DNA of 64,000 nucleotides from positions 992,001 through 1,056,000 of the forward strand of contig NZ_AP022589.1 in assembly GCF_010731755.1 (NCBI RefSeq), in the 5' to 3' direction. Both the position numbers and the translations under genes were made by a program. This document shows, in pieces, positions 27,306-45,390 of this stretch. Origin of the DNA: Mycolicibacter minnesotensis. GTDB lineage: Bacteria; Actinomycetota; Actinomycetes; Mycobacteriales; Mycobacteriaceae. Position 1 is the stretch's first letter. Each line of letters starts with the position of its first letter. The notes below the pieces were generated by a model. The model was given only the letters and a program-made list of their open reading frames with translations. It had not been told where the DNA came from and ran no database searches.

Positions 27306-28556
27306 ATGTCTCCGGACACACCCCCAGCCAGCGCCGAAGCGCGTTGCGGCACACGCCTTGAGGTGCTCTTCGACGAGCTCGCCGAGTTGTCGGGTCAGCG
27401 CAACGCGATCGATGGACGCATCGTCGAGATTGCCGCTGAGATCGCACGCGACGAACTGTGGGGCGCCACCGGTGCCCGGTCGGTCGCGGCGCTGGTGGCC
27501 TGGAAGACCGGCACCTCACCCAGCAATGCGCACACGATCGCGACCGTGGCACACCGGCTGGAGGAGTTCCCCCGTTGCGCCCGCGGCATGCGCGAGGGTC
27601 GCCTGTCACTAGACCAGGTCGGGGTGATCGCCGAGCGCGCCGGCGCGGGATCCGACGAGCACTACGCGCAGCTGGCCGGTGTTGCCACGGTCGGCCAGCT
27701 GCGCACCGCAGTCAAGATGGAACCGCGGCCCGAACCCGGGCCGCGGCCCGACCCGCGGCCCGCGATCACTCGGAGCTCCAACGCCGAACTCGACGTCTGG
27801 CGCATCGCCCTGCCACAGACCGAATCAGCGATGTTCGACGCCGCGCTGCAGTCGCATCTCGATGCCCTGATCGCCGAGTGGAGCCACGACCGCGACAGCA
27901 ACAGCGCCACGCCCGACAACCCTCCCCCGATGCCGACACAGCTCGACGCGTTCCTGTCGCTGGTAGAAGCCGGCTGGGACAGCGAGGCGCAACGACGACC
28001 GCACGGTCAGCGCACCACACTGGTGGTACATCTCGATGTTGAACAGCAGATCGGCGCACTGCACCTGGGTCCGTTACTGCGTGAGTCTGAGCGGCAATAC
28101 CTCACCTGTGACGCCACCTGCGAAGTGTGGTTCGAGCGTGCGGGCGAAGTGATCGGGTGCGGTCGGTCGACCCGCACCATCAGCCGTCGGCTGCGCCGCG
28201 CCCTTGAACACCGCGACCACTGCTGCGTGGTTCCCGGCTGTGGCGCGACCCGGGCGCTACATGCCCATCACATCCGGCACTGGGAGGACGGCGGCGCCAC
28301 CGAGCTGGCCAACCTGGCGCTGCTCTGCCCCTTCCACCACCGGCTGCATCACCGAGGCATCATCACCATCACTGGGCCGGCCGGCCGGCTCCTCGTCACC
28401 GACCACGAGGGCCGGACTCTGCATACCGGATCACTGGCCCGTCCACCGCGGACCTCGCCACCCGCAGTCCCGCCCTGCCCAGGGCCGACCGGTGAACGCG
28501 CCGACTGGTGGTGGTATCAGCCCTTCCAACCCCAGGCGCCACCGAGCACCAACTGA
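27306..28556 (+). CDS. DUF222 / HNH-endonuclease-like 13E12 family protein
   Basis: A 416-residue member of the mycobacterial 13E12 repeat family. The N-terminal DUF222 domain spans about residues 15-250 (VEIAAEIARDELWGATGARS, GMREGRLSLDQVGVIAERAG). A C-terminal HNH-type zinc region has CCVVPGCGATRALHAHHI and LALLCPFHHRLHH. A Pro/Arg-rich linker of PRPEPGPRPDPRP type lies near residue 145. These genes occur in many copies and are often at sites of rearrangement; their function is unknown. This copy stands alone between the valine operon and a convergent YkuD gene. Confidence 0.9.
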   Translation: MSPDTPPASAEARCGTRLEVLFDELAELSGQRNAIDGRIVEIAAEIARDELWGATGARSVAALVAWKTGTSPSNAHTIATVAHRLEEFPRCARGMREGRLSLDQVGVIAERAGAGSDEHYAQLAGVATVGQLRTAVKMEPRPEPGPRPDPRPAITRSSNAELDVWRIALPQTESAMFDAALQSHLDALIAEWSHDRDSNSATPDNPPPMPTQLDAFLSLVEAGWDSEAQRRPHGQRTTLVVHLDVEQQIGALHLGPLLRESERQYLTCDATCEVWFERAGEVIGCGRSTRTISRRLRRALEHRDHCCVVPGCGATRALHAHHIRHWEDGGATELANLALLCPFHHRLHHRGIITITGPAGRLLVTDHEGRTLHTGSLARPPRTSPPAVPPCPGPTGERADWWWYQPFQPQAPPSTN

Positions 28557-31934: not shown

Positions 31935-32444
31935 CTAGAAATCCCCGGCGTTGCGTCGCAACGTCTCAATCGCCGAAGACAGCGCCCGGGATTCCTGTTC
32001 CGACATACCGACATCGGCGAACACCTCGCGATTGAGGCTGTCCGTCGCGGCAGACACCGTCGAGCGGCCCAGCTCGGTGATGGACACCAAGGTGGTTCGG
32101 CCGTCAGTGGGATGCGGCAGCCGCTCAACCAGGCCGGCGGCCTCCAGCCGACGGATCGCATGCGTGACGCTGGTGACGTGGACCTGCAGCCGGTCGGACG
32201 CCTTGGTGATCGGCAGCGCTCCGGAGCGACTGAACGCCAGCAGCCTCAGCAGCTCGAACCGGGAGAAGCTCAGGTCGTAGGCCCGCAGTGTCGCCTCCAC
32301 CCGGGCCAGCAGGATCTGATGGGCGCGCATCACCGACGTCACCGCCACCATGCCGTCGGCCACGTCACTCCAACCAGCCCGCTCCCAGTTGGCGCGGGCC
32401 AGCGCGATCGGGTCGGAGTCGCCGGAGGGACGAGAAACTGCCAC
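31935..32444 (-). CDS. MarR-family transcriptional regulator
   Basis: A 169-residue winged-helix regulator. The helix-turn-helix is GALPITKASDRLQVHVTSVT followed by AIRRLEAAGLVERL, and the wing is PHPTDGRTTLVSITELGRS. It is transcribed divergently from the type III polyketide synthase, 123 bases away, so it is the probable regulator of that operon; phenolic ligands are common for this family. No clear palindrome was found in the spacer. Confidence 0.88.
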   Translation of the reverse strand: MAVSRPSGDSDPIALARANWERAGWSDVADGMVAVTSVMRAHQILLARVEATLRAYDLSFSRFELLRLLAFSRSGALPITKASDRLQVHVTSVTHAIRRLEAAGLVERLPHPTDGRTTLVSITELGRSTVSAATDSLNREVFADVGMSEQESRALSSAIETLRRNAGDF

Positions 32445-32567
32445 GCTCCTTTTCTTACCGCACCGGAGGCCGTGGACCGCTCAGCAGTGCGTGAACGGCC
32501 GCATTTTCACGACATCACGGCATAGAGTGCAATTGAACCCTTGAGCATTCGGAAACGTGACCCCGAC

Positions 32568-33611
32568 ATGACCCTCAGAACACCGTCACTCGCCGCGGTA
32601 GCCATTGAATTCCCGGCTCACCGCTACAGCCAGGCGGAATCGGCCGAGGCGCTGGGCGATTTCGCCGGCCCGGAATTTCGGCGGTTCTTCGACGCCAGCG
32701 GCGTAGCTTCCCGCCATCTGGCATTGCCGCTGTCACGGTATGCCGAACTGACCGGTTTCAGCGAGGCCAACGACATCTTCATCGATGTCGCACTCGACCT
32801 CGCCGAGCAGGCGCTGCTGCGGTCTTTGGACGCCGCGAAACTCAAGCCTGCCGATGTCGACGTCGTGTTCTCGACGACGGTGACTGGTCTGGCCGTGCCC
32901 ACACTGGATGCCCGACTGGCGGCCAGAGTCGGGTTGCGGCCCGACGTCAAGCGGGTGCCGCTCTTCGGGTTGGGCTGCGTCGCCGGCGCTGCCGGGGTGG
33001 CGCGGATGTATGACTACCTGCGTGCCTACCCCGACCAGGTGGCGGCACTGGTCGCGGTGGAACTGTGCTCGCTGACCATCCAGCGCGACGACCGCTCGAT
33101 GGCAAATTTCGTGGCAGCCAGCCTCTTCGGCGACGGCGCCGGTGCCGTGATCGCGACCGGGGCGAACCGCCATCCGGCCGGTCCCAGGGTTCTGGCGACC
33201 CGCAGCCGGCTCTACCCCGACACCCAGGACGTGATGGGCTGGGACATCGGTACCAACGGCTTCCGGATCAAGCTGTCTGTCGAAGTCGCCACCGTCGTCG
33301 AGAAATACCTGGCCGAAGATGTGCGCAACTTTCTGGCCGACTGCGGGCTGTCCCCCGATGATGTGACCACCTACGTCAGCCATCCCGGCGGACCGAAGGT
33401 CATCGAGGCGGTCCAGAACGTGCTTGATCTGCCCGCGAATGCGCTGGACCGAACCCGGAAATCGCTGCGCGAGAACGGAAATCTCTCCTCGGTCTCGGTA
33501 CTCGACGTACTGCGGGCCACCATGGCCGAGCCACCGCCCCCCGGCTCACTCGGCCTGATGGTCGCTATGGGTCCGGGATTCTGCTGCGAACTCGTGCTGC
33601 TGAGCTGGTAG
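32568..33611 (+). CDS. Type III polyketide synthase (chalcone/stilbene synthase family)
   Basis: A 347-residue thiolase-fold synthase. The catalytic triad is complete: Cys137 in LFGLGCVAGAAG, His272 in YVSHPGGPKV and Asn305 in ENGNLSS; the spacing is close to that of mycobacterial PKS18. The GDGAGAVI loop is present. ATG 32568 is preferred over the TTG nine codons upstream. Enzymes of this type in actinobacteria make alkyl-pyrones or alkylresorcinols from acyl-CoA starters and malonyl-CoA. It heads a coupled operon with an ICMT-like methyltransferase, an ABC ATPase and a permease. Confidence 0.95.
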   Translation: MTLRTPSLAAVAIEFPAHRYSQAESAEALGDFAGPEFRRFFDASGVASRHLALPLSRYAELTGFSEANDIFIDVALDLAEQALLRSLDAAKLKPADVDVVFSTTVTGLAVPTLDARLAARVGLRPDVKRVPLFGLGCVAGAAGVARMYDYLRAYPDQVAALVAVELCSLTIQRDDRSMANFVAASLFGDGAGAVIATGANRHPAGPRVLATRSRLYPDTQDVMGWDIGTNGFRIKLSVEVATVVEKYLAEDVRNFLADCGLSPDDVTTYVSHPGGPKVIEAVQNVLDLPANALDRTRKSLRENGNLSSVSVLDVLRATMAEPPPPGSLGLMVAMGPGFCCELVLLSW

Positions 33612-33615
33612 CTGC

Positions 33616-34116
33616 ATGTACTACCTGTTGATTCTGGCCGTCGGACTTGAACGCCTGGTGGAGTTGGTCGTGTCCAACTCCAACGCCAAATGGGCCTTTG
33701 CGCGCGGCGGCAAGGAGTTCGGCCGCGGGCACTATCCCGTCATGGTCATCCTGCACAGCGGATTTCTGATCGCCTGCGCGGCCGAGGTATGGCTGTTACA
33801 CCGCCCATTCCTGGGCTGGCTGGGGTGGCCGATGTTGGCCCTGACAGTGTTGAGTCAGGTGTTGCGCTGGTGGTGTGTGCGGACTTTGGGGCGGCGCTGG
33901 AACACTCGGGTGATCGTGCTGCGCGACACCCCCTTGGTGGTGCGGGGCCCCTATCGCTGGCTGCGGCATCCCAACTACGTGGCGGTGGTGATCGAGGGCG
34001 TGGCACTGCCGCTGGTGCACACCGCATGGCTCACCGCTGCGGTGTTCACGCTGGCCAACGCCGCACTGCTGCGGGTTCGGATCCGGCTGGAGAACTCAGC
34101 TCTGGGCTACACGTGA
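33616..34116 (+). CDS. ICMT-like membrane methyltransferase
   Basis: A 166-residue integral membrane protein of the isoprenylcysteine carboxyl methyltransferase family, with about four membrane segments. The signature RGPYRWLRHPNYVAVVIEG lies at about residues 112-130. In actinobacterial type III polyketide clusters (the Streptomyces srs locus is the example I know) such an enzyme methylates the phenolic lipid. It starts 4 bases after the synthase and overlaps the ABC ATPase start as GTGA. Confidence 0.87.
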   Translation: MYYLLILAVGLERLVELVVSNSNAKWAFARGGKEFGRGHYPVMVILHSGFLIACAAEVWLLHRPFLGWLGWPMLALTVLSQVLRWWCVRTLGRRWNTRVIVLRDTPLVVRGPYRWLRHPNYVAVVIEGVALPLVHTAWLTAAVFTLANAALLRVRIRLENSALGYT

Positions 34117-34859
34117 GCGGAGCACGCCCGCGGGAGCTGACCATCGAACTGCGCGACGTCGTGCGCGAGTATCACATCGGTGGCCAACGCGTGCGTGCTC
34201 TCGATCGAATCAACCTGCAGCTCAACGGCGGACGGTTCGTATCTGTCGTCGGGCCGTCCGGAGCGGGCAAGAGCACACTGCTGCACCTGCTGGGCGCACT
34301 GGACTCCCCCGACAGCGGTTCGGTGATCTTCGACGGCACCGAGATCGGACGTCTCTCAGACGAGCAGGCGTCGGCGTTTCGCCGTCACCGGGTGGGGTTC
34401 GTCTTTCAGTTCTTCAACCTGCTTCCGACACTGTCGGCGTGGGAGAACGTGGCGGTCCCCAAACTCCTCGACGGCAGCCGGCTGGACCGGGTCAGAGATG
34501 ACGCGATAAATCTGTTGGGGCGGGTCGGTCTCGGCAACCGGATCGAGCATCGACCCGCAGAACTCTCGGGTGGGCAATTGCAACGCGTCGCGATAGCACG
34601 CGCGCTGATGATGGATCCGTCGTTGATCCTCGCCGATGAACCCACCGGCAACCTGGATTCGGCAACGGGCGCTTCGATATTGCGGCTACTGGCCGAGGTG
34701 GCGCACGAAGGCGGCCGATCCCGGTTGGTGGTGATGGTGACTCACGATCGCGATGCCGCGCAGGCTACCGACCGGGTGATCAGCTTGCAGGACGGCCGAG
34801 TCGGTTCTGACCACGGCGATCGACTGCGCAACGATGAACGGGCTGCGGTCCGGCGATGA
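34113..34859 (+). CDS. ABC transporter ATP-binding protein (MacB/LolD type)
   Basis: A 248-residue ATPase. GTG 34113 overlaps the previous stop. Walker A is GPSGAGKST, the Q-loop is [12 protein letters not shown], the signature is [15 protein letters not shown], Walker B is [13 protein letters not shown], and the switch His is in VMVTHD. The sequence is of the LolD/MacB group that pairs with FtsX-type permeases; such transporters extrude lipids, lipoproteins or small toxic products. The permease follows with an ATGA overlap. Confidence 0.94.
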
Positions 34860-37354
34860 CGGGGGCGTTAGCCGCCACCGCGAGCCGCCTGCGGCTATTA
34901 AGTCTGCGCGAACTTCTAGTCCACCGGCGGCGCACTCTCGCCGCGATCACCGTCATGGCGGTGTCCTCGATGTACCTCGTTGCGGTGTTGGGCATCTTCG
35001 GGTCGATCACCGGATCGGTGACCCGGCTCTCCGATGGAATAGCCGGGATCGCCAGTCTCGAGGTGTCCGGCGTCACCGACGCCGGATTCCCGGCCTCGGT
35101 GGCAGTCGACGTGGTGGCCGTCCCCGGCGTCGCGACCGCCGCACCGCTGATTCGGACCGCGATGTCCACGCCTACCGGAACCATGCTGTTGTTCGGCGCA
35201 GATGCGAGCAGCGTCGAGCTGGCCGGGGCCTTGGCAGACGCCCTCGCCCATCCTCCGGGCGGATCGGCAAAGACACCGGGCGGCGTGCAGGTCGGGCCGA
35301 GTGTCGGTCATGCCAGGGGCGACGGGTTCCGGCTGGGCACGACCTGGGTCACGGTGTCGCAGGTACTCACCGGAAAGCATCTGGCGGACCTCAACGGCGG
35401 CAACTACATCCTGGCGCCACTTGCCTTGGCGCAGAACATCACCGGGCGGACAGGTCAGCTCGATTCGATCCTGATCACCACCAAGCCGGGGACAGACCTC
35501 GCCGCGGTGCGTACCGCGGTGGCCGCGGCGGTCGACGGGCGCGCGGTTGTCGCCGAGCCACGGATGCGCGCGACTCGGGCCGGCGACGGCGTCCGCCTGA
35601 TGAACTACATGGCATTGATGGGCGCCGCAGTTGCCTTGGTGGTCGGGGCATTCCTGGTCTACACCACGATGACCATGGCGATCACCCAACGCCGCCCGGT
35701 CATCTCGACACTGCGCGCTATCGGCGGCCGCAGGGCCACCATAGTCGCTGACCTGATCGGTGAGGCCGCGGTCCTCGGTGTGCTCGGTGGCGCGCTCGGA
35801 GCGGCCTTGGGAATATTTCTGGGCCACCTGGCAATTCGCCGACTGCCGCCGGCCATCACCCAAGGGCTCGAAGCGCGGGTCGAATACTGGCTGCCCGGCT
35901 ACGCCCTGCCTGTCGCGGTCGCCGCCACGGTGCTGGCCAGCGTCACCGCGGCGGCCATGGCGGCGCGGCAGGTTTACAAGGTGTCGCCGATCGAGGCATT
36001 GGCTCCGGTCGGCGCCTCTGCGGCCGACGCCGTACCGCGCCGACTGCGGATAGTCAGTGGGATCGCTGCGGTGGTAGTGATCGCGGTGTCGCTGGCGATC
36101 GTCGTCGCCCATCGCGGCACCACGTCACTGGCGGCGATGATGGCGGTGTTCTGCGCCGAGATCACGCTCGGATTCGCGCTCACCGCTGCTCTGGTAACCG
36201 CCGCGGCCGCAGCTGCCCGGGTTTTCGGCACAGCCGGCGCGGTCGGGGCGGCCACCATCGAACGCGCGCCGCGGCGGGTCTGGGCGACCCTGATGACCGT
36301 GCTGATCGCCGTGGTCACCACGGTGGTGATCACCGGGACCAACAACGACATGATCGCCTCGGCGCGCACCATCTTCGCCCCCGTCGCCGAGGTAGACATC
36401 TGGGTCAGCGCGAATGCCCCCGACAGCTTTGCCACCGACGCGTTGCCACAGGGCCTGCAGGAGCAGGTCGCCGGGGTGCCTGGCGTGGCGCAGGTCAGCC
36501 CGGGCGCCCACGGTTTCGCGGTGATCGGCGGCACTCGGGTGATGCTCGACGGGTTCTCCCCCGGATCGGCCGACCCGCTGTTCCGGGCACTCGACGACCC
36601 AACACGCCGCGACGTGCTCGCCGGGCGGGGCGTGGTGCTGTCGCAGAACCTGGGTGCGACGCTGGACGTGCGGGTCGGCGACAAACTGCACCTCCAGACG
36701 CCACGCGGCCCACGCCAGGCTGAGGTGCTCGCATTGGTGCCCTACTTCTCCACGGTCATCGGGACAGTCGGGATCGGGCTGGACCAACTCCGTTCCTGGT
36801 TTGATCGCCCGGCCGTGACGACGCTGCAGGTGAGCGCCGCAGACGGGGTCGATCACACGCGGCTGATGGCCGACATTCGCCACGTGGTCCCCGAACCGAA
36901 CTACGTCTACGACGGTCGTGCCGCACTGGCCGGTCTCGAAGCTCCGCTGCGTCAGAGCATGGTGATCGCCAACGCGGTGTTGCTCATCGTGGTGTTCGTG
37001 GCCGCGGTGGCGTTGTTCACCACGCTGACGCTGTCGGTGCTTGAGCGGCGCCGCGAGATCGGAGTGCTGCGGGCGATCGGCGCGAACCGCCGCTTCACCA
37101 TGCAGATGGTGCTGGCCGAAGCAGCGGGCATCGGCGTGGTCGGCGGCCTATTGGGGCTGGTGATCGGACTCACCGATCAGTGGCTCTACAGCCTGGTCAG
37201 TGCCGAGATCATGAATTTCACCGTCACGTTCCATCCGACCCCGGTGGCTCCGGCCTATGCCCTCGGCGCGGTGGCGATCAGCCTGCTCGGTTCGGTGCCG
37301 CCCGCGCGGCGAGCGGCCCGCCTGAACATCATCGACGCGGTCGCCTCGGAATAG
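34856..37354 (+). CDS. FtsX-type ABC transporter permease, double domain
   Basis: An 832-residue permease starting with an ATG that overlaps the ATPase stop. There is an N-terminal membrane segment (about residues 23-42), then a first periplasmic part and a first FtsX block (about 250-380). A second periplasmic domain (about 480-690) and a second FtsX block (about 700-832, ending PARRAARLNIIDAVASE) follow. ERRREIGVLRAIGANRRFTM is the typical cytoplasmic loop of the C-terminal FtsX domain. With the ATPase and the polyketide genes it probably exports the product or places it in the outer envelope. Confidence 0.92.
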   Translation: MTGALAATASRLRLLSLRELLVHRRRTLAAITVMAVSSMYLVAVLGIFGSITGSVTRLSDGIAGIASLEVSGVTDAGFPASVAVDVVAVPGVATAAPLIRTAMSTPTGTMLLFGADASSVELAGALADALAHPPGGSAKTPGGVQVGPSVGHARGDGFRLGTTWVTVSQVLTGKHLADLNGGNYILAPLALAQNITGRTGQLDSILITTKPGTDLAAVRTAVAAAVDGRAVVAEPRMRATRAGDGVRLMNYMALMGAAVALVVGAFLVYTTMTMAITQRRPVISTLRAIGGRRATIVADLIGEAAVLGVLGGALGAALGIFLGHLAIRRLPPAITQGLEARVEYWLPGYALPVAVAATVLASVTAAAMAARQVYKVSPIEALAPVGASAADAVPRRLRIVSGIAAVVVIAVSLAIVVAHRGTTSLAAMMAVFCAEITLGFALTAALVTAAAAAARVFGTAGAVGAATIERAPRRVWATLMTVLIAVVTTVVITGTNNDMIASARTIFAPVAEVDIWVSANAPDSFATDALPQGLQEQVAGVPGVAQVSPGAHGFAVIGGTRVMLDGFSPGSADPLFRALDDPTRRDVLAGRGVVLSQNLGATLDVRVGDKLHLQTPRGPRQAEVLALVPYFSTVIGTVGIGLDQLRSWFDRPAVTTLQVSAADGVDHTRLMADIRHVVPEPNYVYDGRAALAGLEAPLRQSMVIANAVLLIVVFVAAVALFTTLTLSVLERRREIGVLRAIGANRRFTMQMVLAEAAGIGVVGGLLGLVIGLTDQWLYSLVSAEIMNFTVTFHPTPVAPAYALGAVAISLLGSVPPARRAARLNIIDAVASE

Positions 37355-37366
37355 CTTGGTTCCGCA

Positions 37367-37387
37367 GGCGTCCGAACGTCGGATGCC
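37367..37387. terminator. Hairpin between the convergent permease and orphan gene
   Basis: Arms GGCGTCCGA and TCGGATGCC (one G-T pair) around a 3-base loop, directly before the stop of the orphan gene. Without a T-tract, but well placed to end both transcripts. Confidence 0.5.
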
Positions 37388-37879
37388 TCAGACGAGTCCA
37401 AGCTGGATCAGGTCGGTGAACAGCTCGGCGAACGGGTCGGTGAACGGCAGCGCGAACGTACTGTCCAGGTCCGGGCAACCCGGGACGATGAAGGTGTTGA
37501 CCGTCTCCCCGGCGACCCCGATACTGGCGGCCCCGAATCCAAGGTTGTCCTCCGGGTCGGTTCCCGACGTCAGGATGTCGGTGAACCACGCAGTTTGCAG
37601 AACCACTGCGACGTAGTTGTCGTCGTCGGGGTCGGCCGCCGACGTCAGGGTGAACAGACCGAAATCGGTGGTGCGACTGATGAAATCCGGATCATCGACC
37701 GAACCGAACAGCGCAGCTCCGAGATCACCGGCGTCGCTGACGAACCAGGAGTCGGGGCCGGCGGTGCGACCACCACCCTCGGCGTGGACCGGCGCGCCGA
37801 GCGCCGTGGAGGCCAGCCCGAGGGTGACCGCCAGGCCGACCAGGCCGACTCGACGTTGTGTAGCAACAGTTTTACTCAT
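37388..37879 (-). CDS. Small secreted acidic protein, no recognised family
   Basis: A 163-residue protein with a signal peptide (residues 1-33, VGLVGLAVTLGLASTALG then APVHA). The mature part is acidic and rich in Asp, Phe and Thr, with two Cys-free halves and one Cys near the C-terminus (VPGCPDLD), and ends in a hydrophobic FAELFTDLIQLGLV. I do not recognise a family. Its ATG overlaps the stop of the upstream methyltransferase by four bases, so it is translationally coupled to the tailoring set and may carry or hold the product outside the cell; that is inference. Confidence 0.75.
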   Translation of the reverse strand: MSKTVATQRRVGLVGLAVTLGLASTALGAPVHAEGGGRTAGPDSWFVSDAGDLGAALFGSVDDPDFISRTTDFGLFTLTSAADPDDDNYVAVVLQTAWFTDILTSGTDPEDNLGFGAASIGVAGETVNTFIVPGCPDLDSTFALPFTDPFAELFTDLIQLGLV

Positions 37880-38559
37880 GATGGGAACTCCGATCTCTCG
37901 CCGTTACCTGATTCACTTCCACCCCCGAGCGGCGGCTGCGGCAGCACGGTGGCGAACCCCTGAAGTTGTGGCGTACACGGCGGCGGCACCGGGCTGCGCC
38001 GGATGCTGGACAGGCCAGCGGTGTCGAATCCCGCTGCGGCGATGGCATCCAGCGTGCGACGGTTGGGCCGGCAGCCCGACGACAGCCACGCCCACGGTTG
38101 CGCGATCAGGTCCTGAAAACGGCCCATTGCGCCCTCGCCGCGGACGTGCTCGAGCACCACCAGCCGGCCGCCGGGGGCCAGCACCCGGCGGATCTCACCC
38201 AGGGTGGCAGCGACATCATCGACCGAACACAGCACGAGGCCCACATGCACTGAGTCGAAGCTGTTGTCCGGAAAAGGAATCGACTCACCGACCGCGTCGA
38301 CGATGTCCACCGCGATACCGCGGCGGCGCGCCAGGGCCGTCGCCATCCGGCGCATCGCCGGCTCCGGCTCGACGGCGGCGACCGTCGTCACCGCAGCGGG
38401 AAGAAACATCAGGTCGGCGCCGGGCCCCAATCCGATCATCAACAGCCGGCCGGTGGCTGCGCTCATCGCAGTTCGGCGGTAGCGGCGATAGAACAATCGA
38501 TCGAAGAACGGCATTCCGAACCGATACACATACGGGAACAACGGGTTACGCCGCGCCAT
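37876..38559 (-). CDS. Class I SAM-dependent methyltransferase
   Basis: A 227-residue methyltransferase (start MARRNPLFPYVYRF at 38559; a longer frame to 38610 overlaps the next gene further). The SAM site is LLMIGLGPGADLMFLP, followed by VAAVEPEPAMRRM, SFDSVHVGLVLCSVDD and VLAPGGRLVVLEHV. The overall look is of the UbiE/COQ5 group that methylates phenolic or quinone lipids. It sits between the DUF4389 gene (14-base overlap) and the secreted orphan (ATGA overlap) in a compact operon with the FAD monooxygenase. Confidence 0.88.
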   Translation of the reverse strand: MARRNPLFPYVYRFGMPFFDRLFYRRYRRTAMSAATGRLLMIGLGPGADLMFLPAAVTTVAAVEPEPAMRRMATALARRRGIAVDIVDAVGESIPFPDNSFDSVHVGLVLCSVDDVAATLGEIRRVLAPGGRLVVLEHVRGEGAMGRFQDLIAQPWAWLSSGCRPNRRTLDAIAAAGFDTAGLSSIRRSPVPPPCTPQLQGFATVLPQPPLGGGSESGNGERSEFPS

Positions 38560-39205
38560 CGGTCGCCCACCGCTCGCCTTGATCCAACCGGAACGGCGGG
38601 TACTCGTCACGCATCAACGAGACGTAGACCGCCACCCGATAGCGCCAGCGAACGATCCCCAGCAACAGATCGGACATGCCGGCGGGGATGGTTCCGGTGA
38701 TCAACAACGTCAACGCCGTGATGACGCACAACAACTGCAGCACCGGCTCCAAGGCCCAGCACATCAGGACCTGCGGCAAACCCAACAACCACGACTTGAC
38801 CAACACCGTCCGATTGTCCAGCCGGTCGGGATAGTCGACCTGCAGATCGGCCGGATAGTCGGGCCGCGAAGCCAGGGTGAACGGCGGGTACCGGTCGGTG
38901 CTGTTCATCGGAAACCGGTAGTTCATGACGCGCCAGGACCAGCGCAGCACGCCCACATTGAAGTCGAATAGCGGGCGCGGATAGCGCCCGGAGATAAGTA
39001 TCGCGACGCCGGCGATCACAGTAAGCGGCAGATAGACCAGATACAGGACCAACAGGATCGGATAGTGCGGCGTGGCCAGCACACACCATTTGATCAGCCA
39101 CAGCCAGCGCGATGGACTGTCGAACGCGCCGCGTACCCGCACCGGATCGGCCGGCGGCCGCTCGCCGGGGCCGGGGGCCGGATCGTCAGGTGCGGGAAGC
39201 GACAT
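38546..39205 (-). CDS. DUF4389 membrane protein
   Basis: A 219-residue protein with two hydrophobic regions (about residues 40-68 and 140-170). Two repeated halves each contain a LLGIVRWRYRVAVYVSLMRD-like motif followed by YPPF (LRWSWRVMNYRF ... RYPPF in the first, RWRYRVAVYVSL ... EYPPF in the second), the hallmark of DUF4389. A Pro/Asp-rich cytoplasmic N-terminus precedes it. The function is unknown. It lies between the FAD monooxygenase and the methyltransferase with overlaps or short gaps, so it is probably a membrane partner of that pathway. Confidence 0.83.
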   Translation of the reverse strand: MSLPAPDDPAPGPGERPPADPVRVRGAFDSPSRWLWLIKWCVLATPHYPILLVLYLVYLPLTVIAGVAILISGRYPRPLFDFNVGVLRWSWRVMNYRFPMNSTDRYPPFTLASRPDYPADLQVDYPDRLDNRTVLVKSWLLGLPQVLMCWALEPVLQLLCVITALTLLITGTIPAGMSDLLLGIVRWRYRVAVYVSLMRDEYPPFRLDQGERWATDGAA

Positions 39206-39217
39206 CGTCGACCCTCC

Positions 39218-40462
39218 TCAGTGGCGGCGGTCGGTTGTCCGGCCGGCGGGTTGGCCCGCGCCGGCCAGTCCGAGGCTACGGTTGATCTCGCTCGCCATCC
39301 GGCGATGACTGACCGAGCGCAGAAACAGGGTCAGCCCCCAGGTGTGCAGTCGGTCCGGGATCCAGGCCGCGGGCCGCAGCACCATCTCACTGTGGGACAA
39401 CTGCAGCGCGGTCATCCGCGACACCGCTGCCACCTTGCGGCGACGGGCCTGCTCGTAGCGGCGCAGCGCGCGCGACAGCTCCACTCCCGACGTTGTGCGC
39501 AGCCTCGCCAGTGTCCTGCACAGCACCATGGTGTCCAGCAGCGCCTGGTTGGTGCCCTGCGCCATCGTGGGCGGCATCGTGTGTGCGGCGTCGCCGACCA
39601 GAGTGAGTGCACCACGGCCCGCTCCGGGTATCGGGTGACGAAAGTGCGGGTAGGGCGAACCAGCGAGGTCGGCATCGGTCAAAACGGCCAGCATCTGGTC
39701 GACGGGATCGGACCAGCCCTCAAACCGTGCCCGGATCAGGTCGATCGGGCATGGCGGCCGGACGAAATCCGGCGACCAGGGCAGGTCGAACCACCACTGC
39801 AACTCGGATCCGCCCGCCGGCCAGAGTCCGAGGTTGCCCTGCCGGCCCACGATCATCAGCGCCGCCCGCGGGTCCTCGACCGGGCGCGGCAGGCTGACCA
39901 ATCCCTGCCAGCTGCACCAGCCCGTGGACTCGGCCGGTGGAGCGCCCACGTGCTCTCGCACCATGGAGTGCAGACCGTCCGCGCCGATCAGCAGGTCGCC
40001 GTCGATGCAACTGCCGTCGGCGAAGTCGATCCGGGCCGCGCTGTCGGTACCGCTGACGCCCACCACCTGCGCGTCGTACCTGATGCGCTCGGCCGGGAGA
40101 TCCTCCACCAGGCGTTGCAGCAGGACCCGGCGCGGCACCATCCGGACGGGCGCGCCCAGCCCCTGCGCCATTGCGGCCACGTCGAGCGTGGCGAGCCGGC
40201 GACCGGTGGACGTCATGACCCGCACCGCCGACAATTCCTGTCCGGCTCCGGCCATGTCCACGCCCAGTTGGTCCAGCACCGTCGCACCGTTGGGCCAGAT
40301 GGTCACGGCGCCGCCGCCGGACTGCAGGTGGGGCCGTTGTTCAAAGACTGTGACGTCGTGGCCGTCGCGCAGCATGCCGCGGGCAAGGGCGAGCCCGGCC
40401 ACGCCCGCGCCGACCACCAGGACACGCAAAACTGGTGGCGGGGTCTCGGCTCGCACCCTCAC
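39218..40462 (-). CDS. FAD-dependent aromatic monooxygenase
   Basis: About 414 residues from a GTG at 40462; upstream in-frame sequence to 40627 is inside the map gene and unsupported. The FAD site is VLVVGAGVAGLALARGM, LLIGADGLHSMVR is the DG motif, and LVGDAAHTMPPTMAQGTNQA is the second FAD motif, all of the PHBH/UbiH flavoprotein class. In the Streptomyces srs locus such an enzyme hydroxylates the alkylresorcinol made by the type III synthase. Its start lies 47 bases after the map stop, so it may be partly cotranscribed with secY-adk-map. Confidence 0.9.
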   Translation of the reverse strand: MRVRAETPPPVLRVLVVGAGVAGLALARGMLRDGHDVTVFEQRPHLQSGGGAVTIWPNGATVLDQLGVDMAGAGQELSAVRVMTSTGRRLATLDVAAMAQGLGAPVRMVPRRVLLQRLVEDLPAERIRYDAQVVGVSGTDSAARIDFADGSCIDGDLLIGADGLHSMVREHVGAPPAESTGWCSWQGLVSLPRPVEDPRAALMIVGRQGNLGLWPAGGSELQWWFDLPWSPDFVRPPCPIDLIRARFEGWSDPVDQMLAVLTDADLAGSPYPHFRHPIPGAGRGALTLVGDAAHTMPPTMAQGTNQALLDTMVLCRTLARLRTTSGVELSRALRRYEQARRRKVAAVSRMTALQLSHSEMVLRPAAWIPDRLHTWGLTLFLRSVSHRRMASEINRSLGLAGAGQPAGRTTDRRH

Positions 40463-40509
40463 CGTGGTGACACGGTTGAACCGGAGGAATGGTTCACCGC
40501 GCCGCGAAA

Positions 40510-43540: not shown

Positions 43541-44464
43541 ATGGCACGTACTGACAACGACAGCTGGGACCTGGCCTCTAGCGTGGGCATCACTGCCACC
43601 GGCGTCGCCGTGGGCCGTGCGATCGCCAGCCGGGCCGAGCGCCCCCTGATCAACGACCCGTTCGCCGAGCCGTTGGTGCGCGCGGTCGGCCTGGACCTGT
43701 TCAGCAGGTTGGCCAGCGGCGAACTCGCGCCCGAAGACCTCGGCGACGAGGGACCGATGAACATGGCCCGGATGGCCGACAACATGGCGGTGCGCACCCG
43801 GTTCTTCGACGATTTCTTCACCGAATCCACCGCCGCCGGGATTCACCAGGTGGTCATCCTGGCCTCGGGACTGGACTCGCGGGCCTACCGGCTCAACTGG
43901 CCGGCCGGCACCGTCGTCTATGAGGTGGACCAGCCCGAGGTGATCGCATTCAAGACGAGAGTGCTGGCGCAGCAGGGGGCGGAGCCGACCGCAGACCGGC
44001 GAACCGTGGCTGTCGACCTGCGTCAGGATTGGCCGGCAGCGCTGCGGGCAGCGGGCTTCCACGCGGCACAGCCGACCGCCTGGAGCGCCGAGGGACTGCT
44101 CGCCTACCTGCCCCCGGATGCGCAGGACCGCCTCCTGGACACCGTCACCGCATTGAGCGCACCAGGTAGCCGTATGGCCACCGAGAGCACCCCTGGCCTG
44201 GACACCGACAGCCAAGCGCAGGCGCGCCTGCGCATGCAGGAGTCCGCCGAGCGGATGCGACGGCACGGGGTCGACATCGACATGGCCGAACTGCTCTATT
44301 TCGGGGATCGCAATGAAGCCGGCAGGTATCTGGCCGGACACAACTGGCGGGTGGACAGCCACGACGTCGTCGAACTTTTCGCCGAGTACGGCGTGCCGCC
44401 ACTTGCGGACGACGCCGACTCCGTGTTCGGCAGACTGGCCTACATCAGCGCGGTCCGGGGGTGA
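43541..44464 (+). CDS. TIGR00027 family SAM-dependent methyltransferase (1)
   Basis: A 307-residue member of the mycobacterial LCMT-like (leucine carboxyl methyltransferase fold) family. Start [16 protein letters not shown] at 43541, with GAGAATGGAG upstream. [34 protein letters not shown] and [12 protein letters not shown] are the family landmarks. Substrates are unknown; mycobacteria carry many copies. A closely related paralogue follows with a GTGA overlap. Confidence 0.9.
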
Positions 44465-45390
44465 CGGAGATGGAGAACACCGGCACACGATTCTCCGGCG
44501 ACACCTGGGACCTGGCCTCCAGTGTGGGCACCACCGCCACCATGGTGGCCGCGGCGCGCGCGATGGCCACCGACGAAGCCCAGCCGATCATCTCCGATCC
44601 CTTCGCGGCACCGCTGGTACGGGCGGTCGGCATCGACTTCTTCACCAAGCTGATCGACGGCACGCTGGAGCCGGCGGTGGCCGCCGAGGCCGAGACCGCC
44701 GCCGGGCCGATGACCGCGGTCATGGCGGTCCGCACCCGGTTCTTCGACGACTTCTTCCTGCAGGCAGCGGCGGCGGGCATCCGGCAGGCCGTCATCCTGG
44801 CCGCCGGCCTGGACTCGCGGGCCTACCGGCTGGGCTGGGCCCAGGGCAGCACGGTTTACGAGATCGACCAGCCGGAGGTGATCGAGTTCAAGACTCGAAC
44901 GCTGGCCGATCTGGGGGCCCAGCCGACCGCTCGTCGCCGCACCGTGGCCGTCGATCTCCGCGATGACTGGCCGGCGGCCCTGCGCGACAGCGGTTTTGAC
45001 CAGACACAGCCCACCGCATGGAGCGCGGAAGGCCTCCTCATCTATCTTCCGCCGGAGGCGCAGGACCGACTGTTCGACAACATCACCGCACTGAGTGCCC
45101 CAGGCAGCCGGCTGGCTACCGAATACCACCCCGACGGTGCCGCCGCTCTCGGCGACGCAAACCAGTCGTTGGGTCAGCGTTTCGCCTCCCAGGGCCTTGA
45201 TCTCGACATCGCCAACCTGGTGTACGCCGGCGAACGCCACCCCGTCGGGGCGTACCTGAATGAGCGGGGCTGGCAGGTCGGCGAACGCACCCGGGAAGCG
45301 GTCTTCGCCGGCTACGGCCGCAGCTTCCCCGACGGCGACATCGTGGCACGCATGCGCAATTCGGTGGCGATCGAGGCGGTTCGCACCTAG
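44461..45390 (+). CDS. TIGR00027 family SAM-dependent methyltransferase (2)
   Basis: A 309-residue paralogue of the preceding gene. Landmarks: [45 protein letters not shown] and [18 protein letters not shown]. The GTG start overlaps the previous stop by four bases. The two proteins share long blocks, which points to tandem duplication. The equivalent genes Rv0725c and Rv0726c also lie beside the spc region. It ends just before a long perfect hairpin. Confidence 0.9.

Follow-up and report, generated by a model that had tools for sequence, protein, structure and literature searches.

The window analysed here, a 64,000-nucleotide stretch of the Mycolicibacter minnesotensis genome, carries a type III polyketide synthase locus that, in our judgment, probably represents two joined systems. 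One is a marR-pkqA-pkqB group of the polyketide-quinone type; the other is an independent module composed of an ATP-binding cassette (ABC) ATPase, an FtsX-type permease, a flavin adenine dinucleotide (FAD)-dependent monooxygenase (FMO), a DUF4389 protein and a class I methyltransferase (MT). The third pathway gene, pkqC, lies at a distant site, and a common SigL-type promoter element would connect all these parts. When open reading frames and domains of the window were checked, all nine genes of the locus proved to be open, with order and strands as the initial annotation of this DNA had described them (Table 1); the 4-base gap between pks and icmt and the 4-base overlaps of icmt/abcA, abcA/ftsX and orphan/MT are real. 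The locus is flanked by map-adk-secY and, at its other end, by a response regulator/histidine kinase pair (rr, hk); we refer to this site as the map locus.

The synthase possesses the Cys137/His272/Asn305 triad already noted in the initial annotation, with residues counted from the ATG at 32568. It provided the sole Chal_sti_synt_C match in a domain search of the 4.22-Mb genome, and a genome search with the synthase itself as the query returned one additional, weaker match. Pks11 from M. tuberculosis is its best solved relative, while the nearest named relative, from a search that may leave out records very near to our own genome, is the Mycolicibacter arupensis enzyme with 95% identity. In a phylogenetic tree, the synthase clusters with mycobacterial synthases of pks-icmt loci, and an ICMT-type methyltransferase gene is indeed situated directly 3' of it. 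In a set made up of the window and 80 named loci, 62 loci contain the ICMT cluster, and 62 the cluster of FAD oxidoreductases that comprises PkqC (d1). For 56 of these loci the gene order was displayed; it is usually pks-icmt-d1, although L023, L030 and L063, among others, deviate from it (L designates loci, G genomes). Judged from these sequence relationships, the pair in the window can be assigned as PkqA and PkqB of an srsABC-type polyketide-quinone pathway. Such pkqABC/srsABC operons have been described for polyketide quinones in Streptomyces and in M. smegmatis, in the latter with MSMEG_0808 and MSMEG_0809 as members (PMC9927152; PMC8730385; PMC5916927), so that the claim of a locus without described mycobacterial counterpart does not extend to this half; the module, however, goes unmentioned in the accessible parts of these papers.

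Cluster d1 is missing from the window, and the FAD hydroxylase PkqC/SrsC is thus no part of its synthase operon. The initial annotation had recognized an srsABC pattern made of synthase, ICMT and flavoprotein; the first two do correspond to srsAB/pkqAB, but the flavoprotein does not correspond to SrsC. With PkqC from M. celatum as the query, PkqC was found in 12 of the 12 genomes searched, in our own genome at G000:C1:2447223-2448224 (69% match), 1.42 Mb away from the window genes and 4.5 kb from rslA-sigL. Since this ortholog lies elsewhere, and since the match between the window FMO and PkqC covers just 16 residues (E 3e-4), we rejected the FMO as a candidate SrsC/PkqC.

How the pathway is divided became apparent when the pkqC regions and the map loci were compared in seven genomes, classed as Mycolicibacter by their locus and by 82-100% synthase identity. 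At the second locus, the genes are arranged as MmpL - [pks - icmt] - pkqC - aminotransferase - KASIII-like - 221-aa protein - thiamine pyrophosphate (TPP) enzyme - rslA - sigL, with G016 lacking the aminotransferase-to-TPP block. At least one pks, one icmt and one pkqC are each kept in 7/7 genomes, distributed over the two loci. In G000 (the window genome), G022 and G078, pks and icmt are found at the map locus and pkqC only at the sigL locus; G069 and G130 possess pks alone at the map locus and pks, icmt and pkqC at the sigL locus; G073 has pks and icmt at the former and all three genes at the latter; and G016 has pks alone at the former and icmt and pkqC at the latter. An alignment of the sigL locus of our own genome (L206) with L208 reveals that L206 misses about 1.4 kb: the promoter and about 15 pks codons align, then the alignment breaks, and it picks up again within the terminal part of icmt and extends through pkqC. 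The pks gene and most of icmt are likewise gone from L207 and L210, and in all three loci the former pks element is now positioned upstream of pkqC.

In a tree of 52 synthases, for other parts of which a long-branch warning applies, the nine map-locus copies form one clade (99/98), and the three sigL-locus copies fall into another (100/99), which also contains the first of the tandem copies of M. shimoidei. These separate, supported clades point to two old paralogs, and we consequently rejected a recent pks duplication between the two Mycolicibacter loci. Tandem or doubled pkqA copies were seen at L012:8771-11032 and L014, and M. shimoidei carries both old paralog types side by side. At the map locus of some Mycolicibacter, scraps of sigL region 4 separate pks/icmt from the module (L146:6265-6480(-); G069:C1:3873852-3874037), and we read them as the trace of a former sigL copy. 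The four-gene operon of TPP enzyme, 221-aa protein, KASIII-like protein and class I/II aminotransferase, which has a SigL-type element and lies near sigL-rslA (L206:8116-12693(-)), also occurs in L163, L168, L171, L173, L177 and L213; a relative of its 221-aa protein gave no Pfam match.

The ABC-FtsX and FMO-DUF4389-MT genes constitute a separate conserved mycobacterial module. The permease was detected in 38 of 148 genomes at at least 68% identity (the G076 copy is interrupted) and the DUF4389 protein in 39 genomes at at least 69%, all 38 permease genomes among them; six genomes with a weaker DUF4389 match (45-64%) and permease matches below 60% were left out of this count. Forty module loci were fetched, those of G015 and G059 not among them. 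Across 41 loci including the window, the abcA, ftsX, fmo, DUF4389 and MT clusters are present in 39, 38, 36, 35 and 34, respectively, mostly in the same convergent order; L180 has no ABC pair, L181 is interrupted, and some module genes were missed by the simple gene caller. The module occupies many unrelated genomic sites. It is adjoined by pks in 4/38 module genomes, and this only in Mycolicibacter loci: none of the 33 other module loci (L149-L181; one, from G074, without permease) has the synthase. The loci L182-L185, ftsX paralogs without DUF4389, were left out; they represent other double-FtsX permease lineages (36-48% to the window permease) that have no DUF4389 partner. Conversely, pks, with or without icmt, stands next to map with no module there in L002 (M. 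arupensis), L005 (UM_WGJ), L008 (M. engbaekii), G073 and G016; the permease search found no such permease anywhere in G078, G073 and G016; and five module genomes (G013, G050, G088, G092 and, by elimination, G147) have no pkq-type synthase-ICMT pair. As the module occurs without the synthase and the synthase without the module, we rejected a dedicated exporter as the default assumption; judged by its descent in these sequences, the module would not be a dedicated polyketide exporter. Hence the dedicated transporter of the initial annotation has to be given up, and of its expectation that the facing gene sets co-occur in relatives, the part that stands is that exporter and tailoring set do so, as a module of their own apart from the synthase. 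The NCBIfam models displayed for the ABC-FtsX pair all scored below their cut-offs; the predicted structure of the DUF4389 protein is helical, with a mean predicted local distance difference test (pLDDT) score of 57. Our literature searches found no description of the module, and DUF4389 as a search term gave nothing related.

Both arms of the locus begin with the same type of sequence, TGAACC-N16-CGTGAC-N6-ATG at the synthase and TGAACC-N16-CGTGTC-N6-GTG at the FMO, which is of the same -35/-10 type as that upstream of sigL. The window harbors four matches to a looser pattern where 1.58 are expected, and since four were reached in 5 of 100 shuffles, it is by itself weak evidence for the element. 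We therefore counted TGAAC-N17-CGT within -350..+75 of gene starts across loci, a pattern picked after the pks and sigL sites had been seen, using as control sequence resampled with the same neighbor frequencies. In the Mycolicibacter group, which comprises 21 loci with some of them in duplicate (e.g., L002/L214 and L003/L148) and with L213 from another lineage, the element precedes pks in 14/16 cases, abcA in 7/7, fmo in 7/7, sigL in 8/8 (one from another lineage), the TPP operon in 6/7 and MmpL in 7/7. The control genes of this group yielded 0/14 for marR, 0/14 for map, 0/12 for secY, 0/14 for hk, 0/13 for rr, 0/7 each for ftsX, MT and DUF4389, 1/14 for adk, 1/11 for icmt, 1/8 for rslA and 3/7 for orphan, with at most 0.20 expected per gene from resampled sequence. 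At pkqC, the element is found in 3/7 loci, exactly L206, L207 and L210, where pks is deleted. Other mycobacterial pks loci have it at pks (9/10) and MmpL (5/6), and non-mycobacterial loci yielded 0/59 for pks, 1/52 for icmt and 1/49 for pkqC. In the 37 further module loci, which here include L182-L185, it was counted at abcA (17/35), fmo (11/32), sigL (7/7) and the TPP operon (8/8), and for the other genes at ftsX (0/35), MT (0/32), DUF4389 (0/33), c5 (1/8) and orphan (1/6). Taken together, 15 of the 15 sigL loci examined carry the element at sigL itself, and in conjunction with the consensus reported for SigL this led us to the label "SigL-type". The window has the element at pks and fmo and none at abcA, whereas L003, L004, L006 and L007 have one at abcA; an abcA gene without element that overlaps icmt by 4 bases points to an operon fusion of the exporter to the synthase genes.

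The distance from the element to the first in-frame start is 6 nucleotides (nt) in 17/23 pks rows, the remaining six having 23-32 nt, and in 8/24 abcA rows, and 6-7 nt in 12/18 fmo rows and 7/14 TPP-operon rows. Such short gaps suggest leaderless transcripts in these rows; in sigL, a leader that contains an AGGAGG- or GGAGG-like stretch precedes the start.

Several observations weigh against the reading of two systems under a common element. The SigL consensus that we used, a TGAACC..CGT element, reportedly goes back to Hahn 2005, and a literature search for it gave nothing usable. Genome-wide, the strict pattern is barely enriched, with 31 sites versus 25 for the reversed control. A narrower set (N16 plus CGT[GA][TA]C) has seven genome sites, five of them in this system and the remaining two facing no gene start in a simple gene call; this narrowing was made after the sites had been viewed, and it misses pkqC's own site (CGTGAT). 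The pks genes of L008 (M. engbaekii), L215 (G073) and L014 (best copy) have no element, nor do 12/33 module loci, all 12 of whose genomes have a SigL homolog and none a close pkqA. Uniform leaderless promoters had to be rejected, the 6-7 nt spacing applying only to part of the genes. Finally, close pkqA (at least 66%, 43 genomes) and the module (38 genomes) share 19 genomes (P=0.0017, ignoring kinship), i.e., the module occurs in 19/43 genomes with close pkqA versus 19/105 without; this leaves room for a shared role, although it is confounded by kinship.

That last co-occurrence, together with the fused pks-icmt-abcA-ftsX operon and the same element on both arms, would fit a single dedicated pathway in which the polyketide is methylated, oxidised by the neighboring FMO and MT, and exported by ABC-FtsX. 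The element is, moreover, present in 14/14 module loci of genomes with close pkqA versus 7/19 others (P=0.00016; 33 loci outside Mycolicibacter), a contrast that probably follows kinship, perhaps (as a guess) the divide between slow and fast growers, and is not independent evidence. We nevertheless regard such a pathway as unlikely, as PkqC is located elsewhere in 7/7 Mycolicibacter-type genomes, FMO barely resembles it, and synthase and module each exist without the other. What survives of the initial annotation's view of the facing sets as one locus is a plausible single regulon, not a single dedicated pathway. It is also rather improbable that the element is read by another extracytoplasmic function (ECF) sigma factor: the merely reported consensus behind the SigL label, five to seven SigL-like matches per genome and the 12 genomes that combine a SigL homolog with an element-free module would allow for this, but the element before sigL in 15/15 loci is the usual mark of autoregulation. 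The weakest alternative, in which the module and pkqAB share nothing but their position at a rearranged secY-adk-map/sigL site, could draw on the many unrelated sites of the module, the separability of both parts and the sigL scraps, but it appears quite improbable given that both arms carry the same element in 7/7 Mycolicibacter module loci and that it precedes abcA or fmo in 21/33 module loci away from pks.

The reading of two joined systems under a SigL-type element lends itself to a regulatory model, the quinone half of which draws on what is known of these protein families and on the element. RslA is a zinc anti-sigma factor whose affinity for SigL is lowered by oxidation (PMC2877774). 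The sigL-rslA promoter is bound by Rv0737, a MarR protein whose M. tuberculosis gene is close to sigL-rslA, and by Ms_1492, and both increase its expression (PMC13002591). The M. tuberculosis SigL/RslA regulon contains pks7 and pks10 (PMC13002591; PMC2877774). The window marR, which is arranged back to back with pkqA, is 87% identical to the marR of L213 (G060), which has the same hk and rr neighbors and lies about 8.6 kb from sigL; from these shared neighbors we take it to be, probably, the ortholog of the Rv0737/Ms_1492-type marR that other mycobacteria have beyond secY-adk-map-sigL-rslA. Oxidation would free SigL from RslA; SigL would then transcribe pkqC at the second locus and, at the map locus, fmo-DUF4389-MT-orphan as well as pkqA-pkqB-abcA-ftsX, where transcription would reach the exporter genes from the synthase, and the MarR regulator would act with this redox-sensing pair on both systems. 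PkqA would extend a fatty acyl starter into an alkylresorcinol-type core, which PkqB would methylate, and the hydroxylase PkqC would complete the polyketide quinone, probably a backup respiratory quinone. The module, to go by its family names alone, probably makes or modifies another envelope small molecule for export, and the PPE-type domain described below may be its partner outside the cell. A joint induction by RslA/SigL and MarR of the quinone pathway and the exporter module, with a PPE/PE C-terminal domain as envelope partner delivered by ESX or Sec and the split Mycolicibacter pathway united by the element, is a tentative proposal that we hold to be possible, though far from probable.

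An RslA-like N-terminus fused to a carotenoid oxygenase (RPE65) is encoded at L206:14072-15691(-) (G000:C1 about 2454071-2455690), with orthologs in L207-L212. This N-terminus is 61% identical to RslA over 49 residues, its Pfam zinc-finger match falling just under the cut-off; the fusion adjoins a 76-100-aa protein consisting only of sigma-70 region 4, and a SigL-type element lies upstream in 6/7 loci. It is possibly an apocarotenoid-sensing anti-sigma factor.

The secreted "orphan" of the initial annotation turned out to be a PPE/PE C-terminal domain. Its match sits at the module, beside ftsX or MT, in 13/13 genomes with a match (E 1e-5); outside Mycolicibacter, the genes read at this position encode 286-290-aa PPE proteins whose last 100 residues match, PF00823 being confirmed in the one tested. 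Among 120 listed of 190 relatives of the C-terminus, counted by eye, 95 have PF00823, 21 PF00934 (PE) and four neither, and in an alignment of 36 sequences the invariant residues span D63 to G161 of the orphan. The orphan itself has no Pfam match, hence no PPE domain (PF00823), and its N-terminus resembles, by inspection, a Sec signal peptide ending in VHA. Apparently, one C-terminal domain would thus be delivered as PPE, as PE or, here, by Sec. In the structural model (mean pLDDT 63.6), residues ~60-163 are beta-rich, and a Foldseek search brought no hit at E 0.001 or better. Our genome still has 39 PPE-domain matches, which does not support the idea that the Sec form arose from a loss of the PPE machinery; a literature search on Sec-routed PPE domains gave nothing relevant among the matches listed.

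Table 1. Genes and promoter elements of the locus (positions in the window)
Feature	Position	Strand	Remarks
MarR regulator	31935..32444	-	PF01047/PF12802
SigL-type element TGAACC-N16-CGTGAC	32534..32561	+	6 nt 5' of synthase ATG
Type III polyketide synthase, putative PkqA type	32568..33611	+	triad, solved relative Pks11, tree
ICMT-type membrane methyltransferase, putative PkqB type	33616..34116	+	PF04140; adjoins pks in many loci
ABC ATPase (LolD/MacB/FtsE group)	34113..34859	+	module
FtsX permease, 832 aa, two FtsX stretches	34856..37354	+	module; PF02687
"Orphan": Sec-like signal peptide and PPE/PE C-terminal domain	37388..37879	-	signal peptide by inspection only
Class I S-adenosylmethionine (SAM) methyltransferase (MT)	37876..38610	-	module; PF08241; true start perhaps 38559
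Protein with two DUF4389 stretches, predicted helical	38546..39205	-	module; PF14333
FAD monooxygenase (FMO), PF01494 type	39218..40462	-	module; not PkqC
SigL-type element TGAACC-N16-CGTGTC	40469..40496	-	6 nt 5' of monooxygenase GTG

Elsewhere in the window, two neighboring paralogous SAM-dependent methyltransferases beside secY (43541-45390) recur in relatives (cluster c1), and an HNH-nuclease-like protein (27306-28556) presumably resembles the mycobacterial 13E12 repeat family.

Collectively, this locus brings together a pathway that is already known, though here divided between two sites, a module of which our searches revealed no earlier description, and a candidate common regulator that can be tested. 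In oxygen-poor mycobacterial biofilms, polyketide quinones carry electrons, and the accessible part of the corresponding paper names no inducer of their synthesis (PMC9927152); our literature search, too, found nothing that joins a polyketide quinone with sigL. The SigL-type element stands before pkqA in several mycobacterial lineages and is kept upstream of pkqC after the intervening deletion, so that a direct link to RslA/SigL as the redox-sensing pair can be tested. The exporter module, so far uncharacterised, is now defined, and a PPE/PE passenger domain that switches its secretion route could disclose the role of the C-terminal domain without the ESX part.

In comparison with known systems, the locus shares with pkqABC of M. 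smegmatis, an operon said to have been described by Anand et al. in 2015 and whose third gene we take to be MSMEG_0810, a type III synthase gene with an ICMT-type methyltransferase gene directly behind it, and PkqC is present in both genomes; here, however, PkqC lies 1.42 Mb off instead of in the operon, and exporter genes are fused to the latter. Most printed Streptomyces rows likewise read pks-icmt-d1, as in the presumably comparable srsABC operon of Streptomyces griseus, but they lack a SigL-type element before pks (0/59 non-mycobacterial loci), and the module was not seen alongside. Like transporters of the MacB/LolCDE/FtsEX type, the module combines a LolD-like ATPase with an FtsX-domain permease; it differs in having two FtsX stretches in one 832-aa chain and the ATPase on a separate gene, i.e., no MacB-type fusion. 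Over its last ~100 residues, the orphan can be aligned to the C-termini of ~287-aa PPE proteins and of PE proteins, yet a Sec-like signal peptide takes the place of the PPE/PE domain. With the M. tuberculosis SigL/RslA regulon, finally, the system appears to share a MarR-SigL-RslA circuit with polyketide gene targets and the reported TGAACC..CGT element, whereas the regulon would here also hold the ABC-FtsX/FMO module and pkqC.

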